Assembly (NCBI GenBank): GCA_947474645.1
Contig: CANJJD010000003.1
Location: 1-64,000, forward strand
Length of the DNA: 64,000 nucleotides
Source: Alphaproteobacteria bacterium
GTDB lineage: Bacteria; Pseudomonadota; Alphaproteobacteria; Micropepsales; Micropepsaceae
Reading direction: 5' to 3'
How positions within the stretch are numbered: the first letter of the stretch is position 1; every line of letters starts with the position of its first letter. Positions 3,776 to 39,788 of the stretch are shown here, piece after piece. A model generated the notes under the pieces. That model made no database searches. It was given only the letters and a program-made list of their open reading frames with translations, and was not told where the DNA came from. Position numbers and translations under genes: made by a program.

Positions 3776-4479
3776 TCGTTTATAAAGTCCCGCAGGCGCG
3801 CATAGCTGCGCTCGATATGCCGGCGCATGACGGCTTCCGCCTTGGTGCCGTCACGCGCGCGGATGGCGGCGATGATGTCGTCATGTTCATGCACCGCTTC
3901 TTCGGCGATCTCGCTGCGAAAACACGAGCGGAAGATGTGGACATGGATGTGCAGCCGCGCCAAAGAATCCGCGATCAGGTGATTGCCGGCGCCCCGCGCG
4001 ATCAGGCGGTGAAATTCGGTATCCATGTCGGCAAAGGCGTCGTGTGACGGCGCCGTCTCGCCGCTGGCAAGCTGGCGCATCTCATCATCCGCCATCGCCT
4101 CGGCCGCCTTGCGCGCGGCATGGGGCTCGATCAGCAGGCGGAATTCGAACAGCTCATCCAACTGGGCGCGGTCCATGCGCGGGCTGGTGGCGTAACCGGC
4201 GAAGTGGCGCTTGGAGACCAACCCGTTGGCTTCCAGCATGGACAGGGCCTCGCGGATCGGGGTCTGCGATACCCCCAACTCGCGGGCCAGGCTGTCCACC
4301 GACACCCGGGTATCGGGGGGAATCTTGAGGGACATGATGTCGGCCCGGATGCGGCGATAGACCTCTTCCGCCAGCCCGGAGGGGCGCAGGATCGGACGGT
4401 CCGCCGTTTCATTCAGTACTGACGTCAAAGGAACTTTCCCACAGGAAGACTGGCTTTTGTCATTGACCGGGCGGAGCAT
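3772..4479 (-). CDS. GntR-family transcriptional regulator, FadR/FCD subfamily
   Basis: A 235-residue regulator. Residues about 34-100 are the winged helix-turn-helix (VDSLARELGVSQTPIREALSMLEANGLV). The C-terminal all-helical FCD effector domain carries the metal-site pattern of the family (DTEFHRLI, HEHDDII, RRHIERS). FCD members usually sense small carboxylates and repress neighbouring catabolic genes. It lies between two catabolic operons, divergent from the Ldh-family gene, and a perfect 12-bp palindrome occupies the space between them. The ATG has only a weak ribosome binding site, so the start may be further in; the first 30 residues are not conserved-looking. Confidence 0.88.
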   Translation of the reverse strand: MLRPVNDKSQSSCGKVPLTSVLNETADRPILRPSGLAEEVYRRIRADIMSLKIPPDTRVSVDSLARELGVSQTPIREALSMLEANGLVSKRHFAGYATSPRMDRAQLDELFEFRLLIEPHAARKAAEAMADDEMRQLASGETAPSHDAFADMDTEFHRLIARGAGNHLIADSLARLHIHVHIFRSCFRSEIAEEAVHEHDDIIAAIRARDGTKAEAVMRRHIERSYARLRDFIND

Positions 4480-6776: not shown

Positions 6777-8258
6777 ATGACCAATACCGTCACCATCCCA
6801 ACACCCAAGACCGGCCCCGCGCCCTTCCCCATCCCTACCGACCTGTGGATCGGCGGCAAGTGGGTGGAAAGCGCCACCAAGAAGCGCGTGGACGTGTTTG
6901 ATCCTTCCACCGGCAAGAAGATCACCGATGTGGCCGACTGCGACGCGTCCGATGCGCTCGCCGCGGTGGACGCCGCCGATGCGGCCGCCGCCGCCTGGGC
7001 CGCGACCACGCCGCGCCAGCGCGCCGAGATCCTGCGCAAATGCTATGAACAGATCGTCGCCAATATCGAATGGCTGGCCTACCTGATCAGCCTGGAGAAC
7101 GGCAAGGCGCTGCCCGATGCGCGCGCCGAAGTGCTGTATTCCGCTGAATTCTACCGCTGGTATGCCGAGGAATGCTGCCATGTGCTGGGCGAATTGGCGA
7201 TGGCGCCGGCCAGCGGCGCGCGCATCATGGTGCAATACCAGCCCATCGGCATCGCGCTGTTGATCACGCCGTGGAATTATCCCGCGGCGATGGCCACCCG
7301 CAAGATCGCGCCGGCCCTGGCGGCCGGCTGCACCGTGGTGCTGAAGCCCGCCACCGAAACCCCGCTCACCGCCCTGGCGGTCGCCCAGATCATGCATGAC
7401 TGCGGCGTGCCGGCCGGCGTGGTCAATGTCGTCACCACGTCGAAAGCCAGCCCGCTGTCCAAAGCGGTGCTACACGACCCGCGGGTGCGCAAGATTTCCT
7501 TCACCGGCTCCACTCCGGTGGGCCGCGCCCTGCTGCACGAAGCCGCCGACCAGGTGATTTCCTGCGCCATGGAGCTGGGCGGCAACGCCCCCTTCATCGT
7601 CTGCAAGGACGCCAATTTAAACGACGCGCTGGACGGCGCCATGCTGGCCAAGATGCGCAACAGCGGCGAAGCCTGCACCGCCGCCAACCGCTTCTATGTC
7701 CACAAGGACATCTACAAGCCCTTCACCGATGGCATGGTGGCGCGCATGTCGGCGATCAAGCTGGGCGAAGCCACCGATCCGGAATCCACCCTGGGGCCGA
7801 TGGTGAACGAGAAGGCCGTCGCCAAGATCGCCGAGCTGGTGGACGATGCCGTGGCCAAGGGCGCCAAGCTGCTGCTGGGCGGCCAGCGCCTCAACCGGCC
7901 GGGCTATTACTATCCGCCCACCGTGCTGGCCGATGTGCCGGACAATGCCGACATGATGAAGGAAGAAATCTTCGGGCCGGTGGTGTCGCTGCAATCCTTC
8001 GACGATGAGGAAGAGGCCATCCGCAAAGCCAATGACACCGAATATGGCCTGGCGGCCTATGTCTATACCCAGGATCTCAAGCGGGGCCTCAAGATCTGCG
8101 AGAAGCTGGAGGCCGGCATGCTGGGCCTCAATCGCGGCCTGATGTCGGACCCGGCGGCGCCCTTCGGCGGCGTCAAGCAGTCGGGCCTGGGCCGCGAAGG
8201 CTCACACCACGGCCTGATCGAATTCTGCGAGATCAAGTATATCGCGACGAACTGGTAG
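6777..8258 (+). CDS. NAD(P)-dependent aldehyde dehydrogenase, succinate-semialdehyde dehydrogenase-like
   Basis: A 493-residue aldehyde dehydrogenase of the class containing GabD. The catalytic glutamate lies in MELGGNAPFIV and the catalytic cysteine in NSGEACTAANRFYVH. FTGSTPVGRALL is the cofactor loop and EEIFGPVVSLQSF the C-terminal signature. It is the last gene of the ldh-adh-aldh operon (GAGAGCG before the ATG) and should oxidise the aldehyde made by the upstream alcohol dehydrogenase to an acid. GABA-specific partners (transaminase, permease) are absent, so succinate semialdehyde is not a safe substrate. Its stop abuts that of convergent selO with no gap. Confidence 0.88.
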   Translation: MTNTVTIPTPKTGPAPFPIPTDLWIGGKWVESATKKRVDVFDPSTGKKITDVADCDASDALAAVDAADAAAAAWAATTPRQRAEILRKCYEQIVANIEWLAYLISLENGKALPDARAEVLYSAEFYRWYAEECCHVLGELAMAPASGARIMVQYQPIGIALLITPWNYPAAMATRKIAPALAAGCTVVLKPATETPLTALAVAQIMHDCGVPAGVVNVVTTSKASPLSKAVLHDPRVRKISFTGSTPVGRALLHEAADQVISCAMELGGNAPFIVCKDANLNDALDGAMLAKMRNSGEACTAANRFYVHKDIYKPFTDGMVARMSAIKLGEATDPESTLGPMVNEKAVAKIAELVDDAVAKGAKLLLGGQRLNRPGYYYPPTVLADVPDNADMMKEEIFGPVVSLQSFDDEEEAIRKANDTEYGLAAYVYTQDLKRGLKICEKLEAGMLGLNRGLMSDPAAPFGGVKQSGLGREGSHHGLIEFCEIKYIATNW

Positions 8259-31814: not shown

Positions 31815-31902
31815 TTTTTGTCGATTTTCTGCGGAGTTTCGCGGTTTTCCGTGACATTTCAGCCAGAATCGGTGCCAGTTGCGCATCCCAAAGGGGATCA
31901 AG

Positions 31903-33519
31903 TTGCCAGCAGACACCGCGCGCCCATTCCTGCGAACCGATCTCCTGCTCGCCACGCTTCTGGCGGCGGTCGGTTTCTTCCTGCTCGGCTTCGGCGCTAT
32001 CCGGCTGACACCGCAGGGCAGCCCAATTGCGATCATCTGGCCGGCCAATGCCTTCGCGCTGTGTCTGATGCTGCGCTACGGCCGCAACTGGCGCGACTAT
32101 GGGCTCATGCTGGCGGGGACCTTCGTCGGCGATCTGTTCGGCAATGGGCTGGGCGCCGGTTCTTCGATGGTGCTGACACTCGGCTACAGCCTGGCCAATA
32201 CGCTCGAGATCGGCGTGTGCATGGCGCTGGTCGGCAAGGTGCGCGCGCTGCGCTTCGCCAATGTCCGCGCGGCCATCGCCTTCGGCTTCAAGGCGGGGCT
32301 GGTGCCGCCGCTGCTGGGCGCGACGGCCGCCATGCTGGTGACTTGGGCAGGTGGGGGGCACGACGCCTTCGCGGCGGGACGCAACTGGCTCTTCGCCGAC
32401 GTGCTGGGCTTTTGCATCATCTTTCCCATCGGCATGACCATTTCCTGGCGGCAGATCCAGAAACTGCGGTTGCCCCAGCGCCTGCCGCTGGCGGTGGGAG
32501 CGGTGATATTGATGCTCGGGGTTACCGTACTGGTCTACCCGCTGCGTTTCTATTCCCTGCAGTTCCTGATCCTGCCCGCCGCCCTGCTCCTCACCGCGCG
32601 GTTTCGCATACTGGGCGCCGGTACAGCCATGATCATCATCACCGCCGTGATCCTGGCCGATCCCATGCCGCCCAAATCGCTCGATCCGGTCGTGCGCATC
32701 CAGTATCTGCAGTTGTTCGTGGCGGTGTGCAGCCTGGTCTGCGTACGCGCAGCAGGCCTTCTGAACCAGCGCGACCTGCACCAGGCGATCATCGAGCGGC
32801 GGCATCGCCGCGCCGTACGCGCCAGCCGCTTCAAGAGCCAGTTGCTCGGCCATGTCAGCCATGAGGTGCGCAGCCCGCTGTCAGCGATCATCGGCTTTTC
32901 TTCGATGCTGGAGTCCGGATCGCTGTCGCCGGAGCGGGCGCCGGAATTCGCCGCCATCATCGCCCATAACGGCGAGCTGCTGCAGCGGCTGCATGACGAC
33001 TTGCTGGACCTGTCCCGCGCCGAAGCCGGCGCCTTGACTATCCAGGCCGAGAGGGTGGCAGTGGGCACCACGCTCATCGCCTGCATCAAGGGCATCCGGC
33101 TGGACGCCACCCTGGGCGGCAAGGAAGTGCTGATGGACCGCATTGAGGACGCGCTGGCAGTGCGGGCCGATCCGGTGCGGCTGGCCCAGATCCTCAACAA
33201 CCTGATCGCCAATGCCTTCAAGTATGGCGACAATTTTTCGCCCATCCGGGTCAGCGCCCATGCCCGCGCCGACGGCTTTGGCCGCATCGAGATTGCCAAT
33301 ACCGGACCGGGCATTCCCGTGGCCGAGCGGAGGGCCGTGTTCCTGCCGTTCCGCCGCTCGCAACTGGTGGGCCGCTCGGTGCCGGGGGCTGGGCTGGGGC
33401 TTTCGATCGCCAAGCTGCTGGTCGAGGCGCAAGGCGGGCGGATTGATTTTGAGAGCGAACCAGGCCGCCAGACCCGGTTCTGGATTGACCTGCCTTTGGC
33501 CGCCAAAGCGGCGGCTTGA
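31903..33519 (+). CDS. Membrane histidine kinase with MASE1 sensor domain
   Basis: About 538 residues from a TTG at 31903 with AAGGGGAT 6 nt upstream; the track uses a TTG at 31879. The N-terminal 290 residues are a MASE1 domain of about eight membrane spans (AIRLTPQGSPIAIIWPANAFALCLMLRYG is its typical opening). Then follow the H-box LLGHVSHEVRSPLSAIIGFSSML, N-box NNLIANAFKYG, G1 IANTGPGIPVAERRAVF and G2 GAGLGLSIAKLLVEAQGGRI. It resembles plant-pathogen and Caulobacter kinases that sense an unknown membrane or small-molecule signal. The divergent receiver protein is the likely partner. Its stop codon lies inside the -35 box of the tRNA-Val promoter. Confidence 0.88.
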   Translation: MPADTARPFLRTDLLLATLLAAVGFFLLGFGAIRLTPQGSPIAIIWPANAFALCLMLRYGRNWRDYGLMLAGTFVGDLFGNGLGAGSSMVLTLGYSLANTLEIGVCMALVGKVRALRFANVRAAIAFGFKAGLVPPLLGATAAMLVTWAGGGHDAFAAGRNWLFADVLGFCIIFPIGMTISWRQIQKLRLPQRLPLAVGAVILMLGVTVLVYPLRFYSLQFLILPAALLLTARFRILGAGTAMIIITAVILADPMPPKSLDPVVRIQYLQLFVAVCSLVCVRAAGLLNQRDLHQAIIERRHRRAVRASRFKSQLLGHVSHEVRSPLSAIIGFSSMLESGSLSPERAPEFAAIIAHNGELLQRLHDDLLDLSRAEAGALTIQAERVAVGTTLIACIKGIRLDATLGGKEVLMDRIEDALAVRADPVRLAQILNNLIANAFKYGDNFSPIRVSAHARADGFGRIEIANTGPGIPVAERRAVFLPFRRSQLVGRSVPGAGLGLSIAKLLVEAQGGRIDFESEPGRQTRFWIDLPLAAKAAA

Positions 33520-33564: not shown

Positions 33565-33639
33565 GGGCGCGTAGCTCAGCGGGAGAGCACTCCCTTCACA
33601 CGGGAGGGGTCACAGGTTCAATCCCTGTCGCGCCCACCA
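33565..33639 (+). tRNA. tRNA-Val (anticodon CAC), CCA encoded
   Basis: A full cloverleaf: acceptor GGGCGCG/CGCGCCC, D arm GCTC-AGCGGGA-GAGC, anticodon arm CTCCC-TTCACAC-GGGAG with CAC reading GUG, T arm ACAGG-TTCAATC-CCTGT, discriminator A and encoded CCA. A T6 run follows at 33640-33645. Its bases 33595-33636 (from the anticodon loop to the discriminator) are repeated exactly at 35203-35244, which marks the gene as the attachment site of the small island that follows. Confidence 0.97.
33595..33636. repeat. Left attachment-site copy (attL), 42-bp tRNA 3' half
   Basis: TTCACACGGGAGGGGTCACA...GCGCCCA, from T of the anticodon loop to the discriminator base, identical over 42 bp to 35203-35244. 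The preceding base differs (C versus T) and so does the following one (C versus A), so the repeat ends are sharp. tRNA 3' halves of this extent are the usual attB of tyrosine recombinases. Confidence 0.85.
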
Positions 33640-33783
33640 TTTTTTCTTCGCAGCCAGAGCCACCACACAGCACGATTCCCAAGGGCCGCTAACAAGTCGC
33701 AGCCGCACCATGACCGGTTGATCCGTGTCATGCCGTGCGTTGGGCGCTGCCCATAGTCTGATACAGTTATTGGAAGGCTTCTC

Positions 33784-34317
33784 ATGCCCGTTGAACGCTA
33801 CAGCACACCCGCCATATGGCTGCACTGGATGATCGCACTGCTGATTGTCTGCGCCTTCCTTCTCGGCCTAACAGTGGATGCGTTCCCCAAAAGCTGGGAT
33901 GGCGCAATCGTTAATCTTCACGTGCTGCTGGGCCTGGGAGTCTTAGTGCTGTCCGGCGCGCGGGTCTGGTGGAGACTAACCCATCGCCCGCCAGCACTGC
34001 CGTCAGGAACCTCGGCGCTGACAAATCGGCTTTCTCTGGTCGGGCATATACTTCTGTATGTCATGATGTTTGTCGTGCCGCTGATCGGCATTCCCACCTT
34101 GCTGTACCGGGGCCGCGGGATTAATTTCGGCCTGTTCCAAATTTCCTCGCCCTTCGCGCGCGATCCGCAAATCTTCCGCCCGCTGACGGACAACCATGAA
34201 CTTGCCGCCTATGCACTGGTCCTGCTGGCCGCCGGGCACGCCATGGCCGCGATCTATCATCACGTCATCCTCAAGGATCGTCTGCTTCTGCGCATGACGC
34301 GGTCGCGTTCGCCTTGA
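33784..34317 (+). CDS. Cytochrome b561-family membrane haem protein
   Basis: A 177-residue four-helix cytochrome b. Haem-ligand candidates are His14 (IWLHWMIALLIV), the His of NLHVLLGLGVLVLSGARVWWR (about 46), and the two His in DNHELAAYALVLLAAGHAMAAIYHH (about 138 and 153), the spacing expected of the bacterial b561 family (as in CybB). Spans lie at about 13-33, 45-62, 88-108 and 140-160. It moves electrons between quinol and a periplasmic acceptor, possibly superoxide. GGAAGG lies 6 nt before the ATG. It is cargo of the tRNA-Val island, 19 bp upstream of the VIT gene, so the two may be a metal or redox stress pair. Confidence 0.86.
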   Translation: MPVERYSTPAIWLHWMIALLIVCAFLLGLTVDAFPKSWDGAIVNLHVLLGLGVLVLSGARVWWRLTHRPPALPSGTSALTNRLSLVGHILLYVMMFVVPLIGIPTLLYRGRGINFGLFQISSPFARDPQIFRPLTDNHELAAYALVLLAAGHAMAAIYHHVILKDRLLLRMTRSRSP

Positions 34318-34336
34318 GACAGGGGGAGCCATCCTG

Positions 34337-35038
34337 ATGCGCCATTTACAAAGACACCGGGAGCGCCATCTGGTCGCGCGCATCGGCTGGTTGCGAGCGG
34401 CCGTCTTGGGCGCCAATGACGGTATTGTTTCCACGGCCAGCCTGATCCTGGGCGTGGCGGCCGCATCGGCCACCAAGGACGATGTTCTGCTTTCGGGAGT
34501 TGCAGCGCTTGTCGCCGGGGCAATGTCCATGGCGGCAGGCGAGTATGTCTCGGTCAGTTCTCAGTCCGATACCGAGACCGCCGATCTGGCGCGTGAAAGG
34601 CAGGAGCTTGCGTCCGATCCCGAGGCCGAACGTGAAGAGCTTGCGGGTATCTATGCCCTCAGGGGACTGGACCGAGACACCGCGCTGATAGTTGCCCGGC
34701 AGCTCATGGCTAAGGACGCGCTTGTCGCTCATGCCCGCGACGAACTGGGGATTTCCGACCTCACCACCGCAAGACCGATACAGGCGGCCCTGACATCGGC
34801 TGCCACCTTCACGGCAGGGGCGGCCATGCCCCTGCTGACCGCGCTTGTGGTCCCGGCCCACACTGTTGTCATCGCCGTATCGGCCTGCTCACTTGCCTTC
34901 CTGGCCATCCTCGGTGCCATCGGCGCGAGAATGGGGGGCGCCCGCCCGCTCCGGGCGGCAGCTAGGGTCACACTCTGGGGTGCGCTGGCCATGGCCATCA
35001 CTGCCGGGGTCGGCCTGCTGGCCGGAAAGGTCGTCTAG
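34337..35038 (+). CDS. VIT1/CCC1-family iron/manganese transporter
   Basis: A 233-residue membrane protein with the family opening LGANDGIVSTASLILGVAAA (about 24-43) and AGAMSMAAGEYVSVSSQSDTE (about 61-81), which hold the metal-binding Asp, Met and Glu. A cytoplasmic helical stretch (about 82-145) with acidic residues links to three C-terminal helices. VIT/CCC1 proteins take Fe2+ or Mn2+ out of the cytoplasm, in exchange for protons. It is the second and last gene of the tRNA-Val island. The ATG has GGGGGAG about 9 nt upstream. Confidence 0.88.
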   Translation: MRHLQRHRERHLVARIGWLRAAVLGANDGIVSTASLILGVAAASATKDDVLLSGVAALVAGAMSMAAGEYVSVSSQSDTETADLARERQELASDPEAEREELAGIYALRGLDRDTALIVARQLMAKDALVAHARDELGISDLTTARPIQAALTSAATFTAGAAMPLLTALVVPAHTVVIAVSACSLAFLAILGAIGARMGGARPLRAAARVTLWGALAMAITAGVGLLAGKVV

Positions 35039-35202
35039 CAGTCCGGAGCCACGCGGCAGCGACGTAGGCACTAGCGGTGACGGAACGTGTTCAAACGCCT
35101 GTGCAGCATGTGCACACCGTAGCCAATGATGGACCCGACCGGGATAAAAACCCTAGCCAAATCAACTTTGTGCGCTGAGAGAGGGCCACTGGTGTGCTGG
35201 CT

Positions 35203-35244
35203 TTCACACGGGAGGGGTCACAGGTTCAATCCCTGTCGCGCCCA
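35203..35244. repeat. Right attachment-site copy (attR), 42-bp direct repeat of tRNA-Val 3' half
   Basis: Exactly the same 42 bp as 33595-33636, in direct orientation, without the tRNA 5' half and without an encoded CCA (GCGCCCA is followed by AGCCCC). It is preceded by GTGTGCTGGCT. It therefore is not a tRNA gene but the scar of integration. Confidence 0.85.
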
Positions 35245-35270: not shown

Positions 35271-35897
35271 CTATTTCTTGAACTCCACCAGGATCGCTTC
35301 CAGCGGCGTATCGCCAGCATTTTCATCGCCGCCCGTGCCCGGTGTCAGCCAGCGGACTTCGCCCGGCTTTAGCTGCATGGCCGCGCCCGCCATCTTCAGC
35401 CGCGCTTGTGTCAGAGGCACCAGCAACCGTTCCAGCCGCGCGTCATAGCTGCGCGTCTTCTCACCTTTGGCCAGATTCAGCCGCAGTACCCGGACCTGGT
35501 TGTTGTCCAGTTCCACCTTGAAATGGTCGGGATCGGGTGCGGGCGTTTTGACGGTGGGCACCATGCCGGGCGGCGATTTCAACTCGACATGCACAATGTC
35601 CACCGGGCCTGCGGCGGTAATCTCCGCAGTGTGCGTGCCCATGGCGTCGTTCCACTGCACCTCGCCGGGGCGGAAATGTTCCGGCGCAACTTTGCCGTCC
35701 GGATAGCGGATGGTGTTGGTCCCCGCCTGAAAATAGATCATCACCCGGCTGGTGAGATGGACATGGGGCTTGGTGAGCACGCCCGGTGCGCCTGCGCTGA
35801 GCGCCACCCGCGCCACTGCATTGTCTATCGGCGTGGTGGGTGGATCATAAGGGATGCCCATATGGGCCGCAGCGGCCAATGCCAGAAGGGTCAGCAT
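35271..35897 (-). CDS. Exported bicupin-like protein
   Basis: A 208-residue protein with a short signal peptide (MLTLLALAAAAHMG). Two cupin-like halves are visible. The first has KPHVHLTSRVMIYFQAGTNTIRY...HFRPGEVQWNDAMGTHTAEITAAGPVDIVHVELK, with His pairs for metal. The second (DPDHFKVELDNNQVRVLRLNLAKGEKTRSYDARLERLLVPL...LKPGEVRWLTPG...EAILVEFKK) has the same strand order but lost the His residues. The function is unknown. It lies 18 bp downstream of the APC permease gene on the same strand and could be co-transcribed with it. Confidence 0.68.
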   Translation of the reverse strand: MLTLLALAAAAHMGIPYDPPTTPIDNAVARVALSAGAPGVLTKPHVHLTSRVMIYFQAGTNTIRYPDGKVAPEHFRPGEVQWNDAMGTHTAEITAAGPVDIVHVELKSPPGMVPTVKTPAPDPDHFKVELDNNQVRVLRLNLAKGEKTRSYDARLERLLVPLTQARLKMAGAAMQLKPGEVRWLTPGTGGDENAGDTPLEAILVEFKK

Positions 35898-35914: not shown

Positions 35915-37291
35915 TCATGAGGGGGCGCGCCGCAGGACCAGGGTGGTGACCGCGCCGATCAGCGCCCAGGCCGGGAAGATCAGATAGACGGTGGGAAATC
36001 CGCCCGCCTGGATGGGCGGCATGATGACCGCCATGCAGGCCATCACCAACGCGCCGGCCACGCCCACCGCCACCACGGCGGGCGGCGCAGCAGTGCCGGC
36101 GGGCGCTGCCGCCTGGCGCCGCAAAACCAGCAGCGCGATGCAGCAGATGGCATAGCCCAGCACCAGGCTGATGGTGATGGTGTCCACCAGGATGCCGATG
36201 GCGCCCCGGCCCAGGGTCAGCCCGGCAATGTTCATGGCGAAGATGGCCAGGATGATGGGCGCCGGCACGCCGGAGCGGCCTCGCCCCTTGTTCATCCAGG
36301 CCGGCAGGAAACCCTCACGGCCCAGCGCGATCAAAGTGCGCGACGCCATCAGGAAGACGCCGTTCCAGGTCTTGACCAGCGACAGCATGGCGATCAGCAG
36401 CACCAGCGGTACCAGCACCTGTCCAAAGGGCAGCAGCCGCGCCGCCTCGACAAAGGCCAGGCTGTGCGGCGGCAAGGACTGCCAGGGCATCGTGATCGCC
36501 GTGCCGATCACCACCAGGCAATAGAAGCCGGCGGCGGCGGCGATCGCCAGCACCAGGATGCGGAACAGGGTCTTGAACGCCAGGTGCTCGGATTTTTCCT
36601 CCACCACTTGGCTAATGGCCTGGAAGCCGCACAGCAGGAAGGCGCAATTGGCGAAGATGGCGGCGGCGCCCTGCCACCATACCGGCGCGTGCGCCGGCAG
36701 CAGCGGCGCAAGATTGGCGGGATTGCCCTGCGCCAGCATCAGCGCCACGATGGCCAGCGCCACGCCGATGAAAGTGTAGGTCAACAGGCTGTGAAACCGC
36801 GCCAGCGCCTGTCCGCCGGTGTAATTGACCAGCGCGATCAGCGGGGCGCCGATGCAGCCGATGATGAGCTGGTTGCGGGTGACGCCGGTGCCGAAGGCAT
36901 TATACAGCACCACGTCCTTTATCCCCGTCCCCAGCCTTTCAAAAAGCCAGGCGATGGCGAGCCCCTCGAACACCGTGACGCAGATCCAGGCCAGCGCAAT
37001 GAACCAGCCGACATAGAAGGCCAGGTTGCGGCCGAATACGGCCAGCACGAAGCTGAACTCCCCGCCCGTGACGGGCACCCGAGCAGTCAGTTCGGCATAA
37101 CAGGCGCCGATGCAGGCGACCACGATGCCGCCCGCGATAAAGCCGATCAGCGCGCCGCCCGGGCCGGACGATTCCAGCCAGCTTCCCACCAGCACGCACC
37201 AAGCCGAGCCGATGATCGAGCCGAAGCCGAAGGCAAAAAGCTGGAAGCGGCCGATATTGCCTTTGAGGGACGGCGCCCCGGGAGCACTCAC
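35915..37291 (-). CDS. APC-superfamily amino acid/polyamine permease
   Basis: A 458-residue carrier with about 12 membrane spans. Helix 1 has the unwound GFGSIIGSAW substrate motif (about 22-31), and helix 3 region ACYAELTARVPVTGGEFSFVLAVFGRNLAFYVGW matches the APC signature. The start is GTG, sharing one base with the stop of the upstream DMFase-like gene (TAGTG). The close coupling suggests that the carrier moves the product or substrate of that amide-hydrolase-like protein, for example an amine or amino acid. Substrate specificity cannot be read from the sequence. Confidence 0.86.
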   Translation of the reverse strand: MSAPGAPSLKGNIGRFQLFAFGFGSIIGSAWCVLVGSWLESSGPGGALIGFIAGGIVVACIGACYAELTARVPVTGGEFSFVLAVFGRNLAFYVGWFIALAWICVTVFEGLAIAWLFERLGTGIKDVVLYNAFGTGVTRNQLIIGCIGAPLIALVNYTGGQALARFHSLLTYTFIGVALAIVALMLAQGNPANLAPLLPAHAPVWWQGAAAIFANCAFLLCGFQAISQVVEEKSEHLAFKTLFRILVLAIAAAAGFYCLVVIGTAITMPWQSLPPHSLAFVEAARLLPFGQVLVPLVLLIAMLSLVKTWNGVFLMASRTLIALGREGFLPAWMNKGRGRSGVPAPIILAIFAMNIAGLTLGRGAIGILVDTITISLVLGYAICCIALLVLRRQAAAPAGTAAPPAVVAVGVAGALVMACMAVIMPPIQAGGFPTVYLIFPAWALIGAVTTLVLRRAPS

Positions 37292-39696
37292 TAGATCGGC
37301 GCTTTGAACGGCTGCGGATCGGAAAAACGCTTCAGGACATTGGTGGTGATGCGGGCAATGTCGTTGTCGAAGTTCTTGTGGTTCAGCGCGCCGATATAGG
37401 CCATCGAGCCGACGGAAAACACCGCGCCGCCCGAGGGCGTCTCGAAGAAGGTGAGCGAGGCGTAGCTTTTGTTGTCGTAATCGTCGCGCATCTGCGCCGC
37501 CTGCTGGGCGTTGGCCCAGGCCGGGATCGGCGTGCCTTCGGACTTGGCCAGGTGCAGCGCATGGCGCGGCGTGCCGGCGTCATAATCCACCCGGTCGAAC
37601 TCATCGCCCGCGGCGCCGCCGAAATGGGTGCCGTAATCGCCGATGATCTCGTTATGCACCCCGGCGAAGATGAAGGCGGCGCGCGGGTTCTTGGAATCGG
37701 GCAGCACCTTGTAATAGGTGTTGCCCGACCCGAAGGTGGTGCCCACATAGCGCACGCCCAAGGTGTGGGCCAGCCAGGTATGGTCCCATTCCAGATTGTC
37801 CACGCCATTGAGCTCGAAGCGCCGCTCGCCTTCGAAATTCTGCGGCGTCCAGTAGATTTCATTGAGGCGCCGCAGCTCGATGGCCGGAATGCCGTCATCG
37901 CGCCAGGCCGCCGGATTCTGGAAGCCGTTGCCGCCCATGTACATAAAGCGGCCGCCACTCCCCAGATAATCCTTCACGGCGGTGAAGATTTCGGGCGACT
38001 GGTATTCCGGATGCTGGCCTGTGATCACCGTGCGATAGCGCGACAGCAGCGCCTTGCCCTCCTTGTGCACCAAGTCGTCGGTGATGATGTCGTAAGGCAT
38101 ATCCTCATGTTCCAGCCAGTCCACGATCTGGGTGTCGGAATTGATCAGGTGCAGCCAGGTCTTGAGCGTCACCGTCAGCAGCGGCCGGCGCCAGGTCGAA
38201 CGGGTCACCAGTGTGCCGTCAATATGCTGGTCGTAAAGACCACGGCCGAATTCGGGGTGCTGCATCAGGAAATCAATGTCGTCAGCGTTGAAATGGAAGG
38301 CGGGATAACGCTCGAGCTGGGCGAAATTGCGCGTCCAGTTGACGTAGGCCAGATAGGTGGTGGTGGGGATCAGGAAAGCGGTGGGTGCGGTGGTGGTGCC
38401 CTTGGGCGGCGCCACAAAGAAGGGCACATAATGCTCGGACTTGCCGTGCTGCAGATGCACGGCATAGATGCCGCTCTTCAAGCCCGCCGGCACCGCATAG
38501 GTAAAGCTGGGCTTCCATTCCGCATCCAGAAGATCGTCCTCGCGGAAATAGATGGCGGAAAATTCGTTCGGCTGCTGGCGCCAATCTTTGCTGGAGGTCC
38601 AGTGATAGCCTTTCATGGCGCGCTGCGGCCAGTTGACGCCGCGCCCGTTCCAGCCCGCCGCTGTCGTGTCATGCACGGTCAGGGTGCCGATGCCGCGCCC
38701 GAAATCCCAGAAGCCGCGAATGGCGTCGCCGGCCACCTGGTCCAGCCGTGTGGCGGAAGCCACGCGGATCATGTCGGTGGGATGCAGCACCTTGCCGGCG
38801 ATGCGCACGCCATCGATGCGGCCGTTGAAAAGCGCGAAGGGCGCCGGCTGGCCATTGGCCATGGTCTCGCCGCAGCCGGCGGCAAAGCGCATCGGCGTGC
38901 CGGCAGCCACGGTCCAGTCCCGCGCCAAACGACGTGTGCCGAAAATGTAGTGCCAAGGGTCGCTGTTGGACGCGAGGGTGAAATTGGGGTCGGTCAGCAG
39001 CACGTCATAGACGCGCCACTCCCCCGAAGCGGCATCGAAGGAGGCGCCCAGCATGGTCCAGTGATTGGGCTGGATGAAGCGCGAAGTGCGCAGCTTGAAA
39101 TATCTGCCGCCGCCCTCGCCCACCCACAGCGCGCCTTCGCCGCGCTCGTCAATGCCGATGGCCCAGCCGGTCTTTTTGGTCTCGTCCCATTGCGAGGCGA
39201 TGAATTGCGGGCCCTTGCCGGGCAAGGTGGGCTTGATCAGCGCCACCACCGAGAAATCCTGTTTGCTGCTGGTGATGGCCGAGGCCGAGGGCGTATCGAA
39301 GGTCACATAAGAGCCGGCCCAGACTTTCTGTTCGCCGCCCGCATAGCTTTTGGTGAAATCGGCGGACACCGGGTCCACCCGGAAACGCCCGGCGCCCGAC
39401 AGGCTGTCGCCATTGATCACCCGCACCAGCGAGGCTTTGTAATCGCCCGGCGCATAGGTGCTGACATGGAAGGTGATGGCCTCGCCCGGCCGCACCGTGA
39501 TCTGGTCGCTGTAACCGACAACGGTCTTGTTGGATTTGGCCAAAGTCAGGGCATGGCCCTTGTCGGCGTCCGTCACCGGGCGGCGCGGGCGCTGCGTCAG
39601 GCTGGTCAACGCCATGGCGGGAAGCTTGGCCATGGCGGTGAAGGCCGAGACCACCCCCATCATCAAGATGGACGTGCGGCGCGTGAGATTGACCAT
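37291..39696 (-). CDS. N,N-dimethylformamidase large-subunit-like protein with Tat-type leader and LamG domain
   Basis: About 801 residues from the ATG at 39696 (MVNLTRRTSILMM). The TRRTSIL leader and hydrophobic stretch look like a Tat signal. Then come an N-terminal beta domain (YSDQITVRPGEAITFHVST), a LamG/concanavalin domain (about 115-300, FSVVALIKPTLPGKGPQFIASQWD, WTMLGASFDAASGEWRVY), and a C-terminal catalytic region with TTTYLAYVNWTRNF, the GRFMYMGGNGFQNPAAW segment and Tyr/Glu-rich stretches where DMFase places its Fe ligands. Known DMFase is an alpha2beta2 cytosolic enzyme; no small subunit is encoded nearby. Probable role: hydrolysis of an amide or related C-N bond in the periplasm. 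The track start (39759) is less likely. Confidence 0.75.
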   Translation of the reverse strand: MVNLTRRTSILMMGVVSAFTAMAKLPAMALTSLTQRPRRPVTDADKGHALTLAKSNKTVVGYSDQITVRPGEAITFHVSTYAPGDYKASLVRVINGDSLSGAGRFRVDPVSADFTKSYAGGEQKVWAGSYVTFDTPSASAITSSKQDFSVVALIKPTLPGKGPQFIASQWDETKKTGWAIGIDERGEGALWVGEGGGRYFKLRTSRFIQPNHWTMLGASFDAASGEWRVYDVLLTDPNFTLASNSDPWHYIFGTRRLARDWTVAAGTPMRFAAGCGETMANGQPAPFALFNGRIDGVRIAGKVLHPTDMIRVASATRLDQVAGDAIRGFWDFGRGIGTLTVHDTTAAGWNGRGVNWPQRAMKGYHWTSSKDWRQQPNEFSAIYFREDDLLDAEWKPSFTYAVPAGLKSGIYAVHLQHGKSEHYVPFFVAPPKGTTTAPTAFLIPTTTYLAYVNWTRNFAQLERYPAFHFNADDIDFLMQHPEFGRGLYDQHIDGTLVTRSTWRRPLLTVTLKTWLHLINSDTQIVDWLEHEDMPYDIITDDLVHKEGKALLSRYRTVITGQHPEYQSPEIFTAVKDYLGSGGRFMYMGGNGFQNPAAWRDDGIPAIELRRLNEIYWTPQNFEGERRFELNGVDNLEWDHTWLAHTLGVRYVGTTFGSGNTYYKVLPDSKNPRAAFIFAGVHNEIIGDYGTHFGGAAGDEFDRVDYDAGTPRHALHLAKSEGTPIPAWANAQQAAQMRDDYDNKSYASLTFFETPSGGAVFSVGSMAYIGALNHKNFDNDIARITTNVLKRFSDPQPFKAPI

Positions 39697-39788
39697 GACA
39701 AATACCCCAGACTCTTTTTTGGATTCAGGCATATCCCGGCAGGGCTGGCAATGGCGCAATTGTGCAGCAAAACGTGCCTTTGGCCGCG

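Follow-up and report, generated by a model that had tools for sequence, protein, structure and literature searches.

CIMEs are elements that keep their att sites without integrase or transfer genes; the classical examples from S. salivarius measure 1.2-13 kb, and 215 CIMEs have been reported at tRNA-Lys(CTT) in Streptococcus agalactiae (PMC7563491). Among the ssrA islands of Dehalococcoides, 15 of 31 lack an integration module and have been suggested as possible CIMEs (PMC3146451). The Islander catalogue describes tRNA-targeted islands whose integration is catalysed by tyrosine integrases carried on the islands themselves (PMC4383910), and tycheposons, described in Prochlorococcus, are 4-200 kb long and bring their own recombinase (PMC10872708).

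Here a 64-kb stretch of alphaproteobacterial DNA (termed the window) is considered, in which a cytochrome b561 gene and a VIT-family transporter gene lie between two copies of the 3' half of tRNA-Val(CAC). Like CIMEs, this element retains an att core of 42 bp on each side (the distal one without its CCA), carries cargo, and encodes neither integrase nor transfer genes; moreover, ICEs of the same site exist, and accretion is seen, in relatives. It differs from them in its host, in its target site and in having no active helper within its own genome. An ICE-like island does occupy this site in one relative (G013), yet its arms do not match those of the window's element, and both ICE/IME descent and cis-mobilization are hypothetical; the element is thus CIME-like by its att cores and gene content, with formal membership of that class incomplete.

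The other systems are comparable in part. As in Dehalococcoides, the tRNA-Val islands described below include tandem ones and are bounded by copies of the 3' end of an RNA gene, although there the target is the tmRNA gene and the recombinases are serine recombinases, whereas here they are tRNA-Val and tyrosine integrases. As in Islander islands, the ends are marked by a restored tRNA and a displaced fragment, but Islander islands carry an integrase and the window's island encodes none. The likeness to tycheposons, by description only, lies in tRNA-bordered cargo, and the contrast in their tyrosine recombinase and in their size, as the window's unit spans 1.6 kb. A sequence-only reading of the window had proposed a new class of tiny tRNA-targeted element; this is not supported, because CIMEs of 1.2-13 kb (PMC7563491) and integrase-less ssrA islands (PMC3146451) were already described. 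The element is instead a small, clean example of an already known type that occupies a new site.

The tRNA-Val(CAC) gene and its displaced 3' half

The features of the locus, all within the window, are as follows.

31879-33519, + strand: left flank, MASE1-type histidine kinase, syntenic upstream of the tRNA in G081, G064, G036, G031, G009, G008 and other relatives
33565-33639, + strand: tRNA-Val(CAC), intact and encoding CCA (ARAGORN; Rfam tRNA, 66.6 bits); its 3' part is the proximal att site (attL-like)
33595-33636, + strand: proximal copy of the 42-bp core, tRNA nt 31-72; the same core occurs beside integrases and in phage contigs
33640-33783, + strand: proximal arm or leader, 144 bp, GC 0.56, with no relatives among the loci compared
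33784-34317, + strand: cytochrome b561 (PF01292, E 9e-27), 177 aa, intact; aligns with E. coli b561 (PDB 5oc0), its heme-ligand histidines being conserved
34337-35038, + strand: VIT-family transporter (PF01988, E 5e-68), 233 aa, intact; full-length alignment with plant VIT1 (6iu3)
35039-35202, + strand: distal arm, with no integrase remnant detected and no blastn match
35203-35244, + strand: distal copy of the core (attR-like), a displaced tRNA 3' half without CCA and without the terminator hairpin known from relatives
35271-35897, - strand: right flank, cupin-like protein without a Pfam match, which in G081 and G001 likewise lies downstream of the distal half of the tRNA

This tRNA is the only one that ARAGORN finds in the window. 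The direct repeat recovered by the repeat search is 100% identical over its 42 bp, with a spacing of 1608, and extends from the first base of the anticodon loop (nt 31) to the discriminator base (nt 72); the distal copy has no 5' half, and AGC stands where CCA would be. This confirms what had been claimed from the letters alone, namely an exact, direct repeat of the tRNA 3' half, as do the open reading frames and Pfam matches for the two intact, co-directional genes 19 bp apart with no recombinase between the copies. Since the short distal copy alone scores E 1.5e-15 in a genome search, the repeat is not due to chance; it is, moreover, internal to a contig of 184.8 kb. The locus therefore has the outline of a tRNA-integrated island, one end being the intact tRNA and the other a displaced, directly oriented 3' fragment. 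The integrase that such islands encode is missing here, with neither a gene nor a remnant of one between the cores. As to the claim that the event was recent, the copies are indeed identical, but this is weak evidence of youth, as zero differences in 42 bp merely bound divergence at ~7% (own calculation).

Between the cores, a search for recombination, conjugation or mobilization genes returned none, leaving b561 and VIT only. Within the leader, an Rfam scan found nothing beyond the tRNA and a scan for sigma-70-type promoters gave no match. The distal spacer of ~165 bp was searched for the tail of an integrase, which was not found (score 24 versus a shuffle mean of 29); a candidate frame there (...VQHVHTVAND...) was rejected, having scored below shuffled sequence. 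Neither arm matches any of the islands compared, helper-type elements included (by blastn for the distal arm). A further apparent att copy in the same genome (C16:51563-51613) was also set aside, being the overlap of contigs C16 and C17 within tRNA-Val(GAC).

Beyond the right flank, a large protein (37291-39759), whose C-terminal domain resembles the beta subunit of N,N-dimethylformamidase and which also has a laminin-G-like domain, adjoins the cupin and an amino-acid permease; in G001, too, the three are neighbors, close to a tRNA-Val half. In G017 (L214) and G001 (L209), tRNA-Val(CAC) or its half is inverted relative to the neighboring histidine kinase, through inversion of the locus or, in G001, possibly misassembly.

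An integration hotspot within the genus

To place the locus in context, 69 genomes of the window's genus were surveyed with a pattern for the T-arm/acceptor half of tRNA-Val(CAC), and the 5' context of each match was then inspected. Isolated extra 3' halves occur in at least 20 of the 69, so that tRNA-Val(CAC) is an integration hotspot in this genus. The copies begin at nt 27-28 in G013, G021, G022, G025, G027, G029 (twice), G034 and G062; at nt 30-31 in G006, G009, G015, G021, G091 (relative to its own tRNA) and the window; and at nt 20 in G004 and G071. Most independent breakpoints thus fall at nt 27-31, the window's included, and their repeated location at the anticodon stem/loop points to the core of a tyrosine integrase rather than to random duplication of the tRNA. 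Tandem arrays with several half copies, which show accretion, are present in G021, G029 and G079.

Tyrosine integrases of one family (aligned in A1) reach to within 6-35 bp of the distal half in G013, G022, G021 and G034, and another PF00589 frame lies less than 1 kb downstream of the tRNA in G015. Arms of 300 bp are common to G006 and G015 on both sides, and G009 and G025 have the initial 39-97 bp of the proximal arm in common. The A1 family, the separate G015 frame and these shared-arm pairs suggest that this tRNA serves two or more element families. Because the 54-kb island of G013, from tRNA to half, encodes VirB4/TrbE-, TrbL/VirB6- and TrbI-type conjugation proteins, ICE-like elements are among the users of the site. 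The same island (L327-L329, C6:933900-986700) also encodes an Eco57I-type methylase and large helicase-like proteins, possibly a defence cluster, together with AbiEii.

In IMG/VR viral contigs that encode relatives of the A1 integrases, a copy of tRNA-Val nt 27-75, 86-92% identical, is situated ~70-700 bp from the integrase. By their sequence and position, these halves are putative attP-like cores, and the phages that bear them would use the same site.

L302/L303/L309, 5023-5071: tRNA-Val 3' half on viral contigs
L312, 5367-5415: tRNA-Val 3' half on a viral contig
L307, 5663-5711: tRNA-Val 3' half on a viral contig
L308, 5081-5155: whole tRNA-Val near the integrase of a viral contig

Taken with the relatives and their integrases, these copies strongly support the general premise of the sequence-only reading, that the tRNA 3' half serves as an integrase attachment site.

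The nearest relative with both flanks of the window is G081 (kinase 81-82% and cupin 75-77% identical). There the kinase and tRNA-Val are followed by 9.5 kb of other genes, two-component signalling proteins included, and a 3' half at 91% identity, beyond which come a terminator hairpin, small genes, the cupin and the permease. Such a hairpin also follows the distal halves of G001 and G009. An empty/occupied pair is provided by G036 and G025, as the flank downstream of the unoccupied tRNA of G036 matches the flank beyond the distal half of G025 (62 bp at 90%). Relatives thus show integrase-bearing elements, alternative cargo and empty sites at this tRNA, as the comparison suggested beforehand had sought; among the relatives examined, however, no empty site has exactly the window's right flank.

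Several relatives contain units of a size comparable to that of the window. One of these, in G009 (L216:46-2143), lies between two halves, is 2.1 kb long and retains, besides an M28 peptidase-like gene, the last ~35 residues of an integrase directly before the distal half; it catches erosion half-way. Four others, all situated between tRNA-Val(CAC) and a copy of its 3' half, are integrase-less:

G027 (L217:10377-11526): 1.2 kb, one ORF of 283 aa
G085 (L221:4261-5309): 1.1 kb, no clear gene
G091 (L222:4145-5022): 0.9 kb, an HTH_3 regulator
G062 (L223:3451-4406): 1.0 kb, HTH and ParE-type toxin

Integrases of the window's own genome

Because an integrase beside tRNA-Val elsewhere in the genome could act in trans, the rest of the assembly, which is 99.6% complete, also bears on the locus. 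A profile search detected no integrase of the A1 family. There are three PF00589 matches, of which two, strong and single-copy, look like XerC/XerD, judging by their score and ubiquity; the third adjoins not tRNA-Val but tRNA-Ser(GCT), on contig C18:

L231, 6368-7474: tyrosine integrase of C18, beside tRNA-Ser(GCT) at 7506-7599

No duplicated end of this tRNA-Ser was found within the 10 kb inspected. As a possible helper the C18 integrase was rejected, given its neighboring tRNA-Ser(GCT) and its weak similarity to the tRNA-Val integrases.

How the unit may have arisen

The interval is probably the stripped and stranded remnant of a tyrosine-integrase island in tRNA-Val(CAC). A tyrosine integrase, of the kind seen in relatives, would have inserted an element into the 3' half of the tRNA in the window's strain; the element's own copy of nt 31-72 plus CCA would have rebuilt the tRNA, and the displaced half would have been pushed to the far end. 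Subsequent deletion, either internal or between tandem islands, may then have removed the integrase and whatever transfer genes there were, leaving the two intact cargo genes between att cores. Renewed movement could occur only if an ICE or phage of the same site integrated beside the unit (i.e., by accretion) or supplied an integrase in trans.

Site-specific integration as such is strongly supported, whereas tRNA duplication is not, by the shared hotspot, its breakpoints, the A1 integrases, the phage cores and the alternative insert of G081. Taken alone, the repeat would allow a partial duplication of the tRNA by ordinary recombination, with the cargo inserted separately and no integrase involved, and some tRNA duplications do exist generally; yet only the 3' half was copied here, the breakpoints of independent islands coincide at nt 27-31, and the core is shared with integrases and with attP-like copies of phages, which makes such an origin highly improbable.

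The sequence-only reading had left two possibilities side by side, an island trimmed to its cargo and a satellite mobilized in trans, of which the former fits better. A satellite-like mini-island that never had an integrase, and was moved by phage or ICE integrases of the same site, would suit the exact cores, the intact cargo with little spare DNA, the four other genomes with integrase-less units of 0.9-1.2 kb and differing contents (G062, G091, G027 and G085), and the existence of helper-type phages and of the ICE-like island. It is nonetheless unlikely: no A1-family integrase is detected in the window's genome; the distal CCA is lost, as is the terminator hairpin; the unit's arms share nothing with helpers, whereas islands of the two recognized families share arms of 40-300 bp; and the cargo pair occurs in no second genome of the genus (best b561 62%, best VIT 73%). 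The helper-shared arms or packaging signals and the several hosts expected of a phage satellite are therefore not seen, as no arm matches and a single genus genome has the pair. The comparable 2.1-kb unit of G009, which keeps its integrase stump, likewise argues for trimming. Against a stranded remnant stand the absence of an integrase remnant from the window's island, arms that resemble no recognized element family, and the hypothetical nature of an ICE/IME parent, while the identical 42-bp copies would also fit a unit that is still active. On balance, the evidence favors a stranded remnant, with a unit moved by a now-absent helper as the lesser possibility.

It has also been considered that a larger array containing b561-VIT was mostly deleted by recombination between core copies, as the arrays with several halves in G021, G029 and G079 and the 9.5 kb at the same place in G081 might suggest; of the rest of this array the window retains no direct trace, and this course of events, quite improbable in its specific form, is really a sub-version of the stranded remnant. 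A broader, doubtful idea, prompted by the recurrence of mini-units and tandem arrays, is that tRNA-Val(CAC) is a cassette platform, at which integrase-less units of one or two genes are captured and moved in trans by resident phage and ICE integrases sharing a 42-49-bp core; such units might comprise b561-VIT in the window and toxin-antitoxin-like, regulator and unknown-gene units (G062, G091 and G027), an outcome comparable to gene cassettes.

The b561 and VIT cargo

MbfA is a bacterial relative that contains a VIT domain. It exports iron (PMC4902296), and a role as membrane superoxide oxidase has been discussed for E. coli CybB (PMC11869295). By family membership, the cargo, an electron carrier of the b561 type related to CybB and a Fe2+/Mn2+-type VIT transporter, probably acts in metal or oxidative stress.

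Same-strand pairs of b561 and VIT genes also occur elsewhere. In Methylobacterium (L018), Rhodanobacter (L033), Mesorhizobium (L036) and Brevundimonas (L080) b561 lies 12-48 bp upstream of VIT, whereas in two members of the genus, G072 (L137) and G025 (L138), it follows VIT by 82-173 bp. These pairs involve different b561 subfamilies (~28-36% identity), and their recurrence suggests that metal transport and membrane redox chemistry are functionally connected; a literature search for a link between the VIT family and b561 in operons gave no match.

Relatives of the VIT gene occur on 369 plasmid records. In 5-6 of 80 loci a VIT gene lies at most ~400 bp from a tRNA gene (L028, L033, L034, L065 and L080, with L017 doubtful), the rough expectation being ~1. 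A general role of VIT as cargo of tRNA islands is not supported, as the first five of these loci have no duplicated tRNA ends. A Rhodospirillales MAG contig (L014), which also carries a VIT gene, contains another tRNA island, with tRNA-Ser(GCT) at 1484-1576 and an exact 65-bp copy of its 3' end 2.5 kb downstream (4018-4082).

Conclusions

The recurring pairing of b561 with VIT merits a functional test. The window's locus illustrates how much a tRNA island can lose with its cargo still intact between att cores. More generally, because the hotspot, used in at least 20 of 69 genomes, holds an ICE-like island, tandem arrays and ~1-kb units, with phage contigs carrying its core, it could allow erosion, accretion and trans-mobilization to be compared directly within a single genus.
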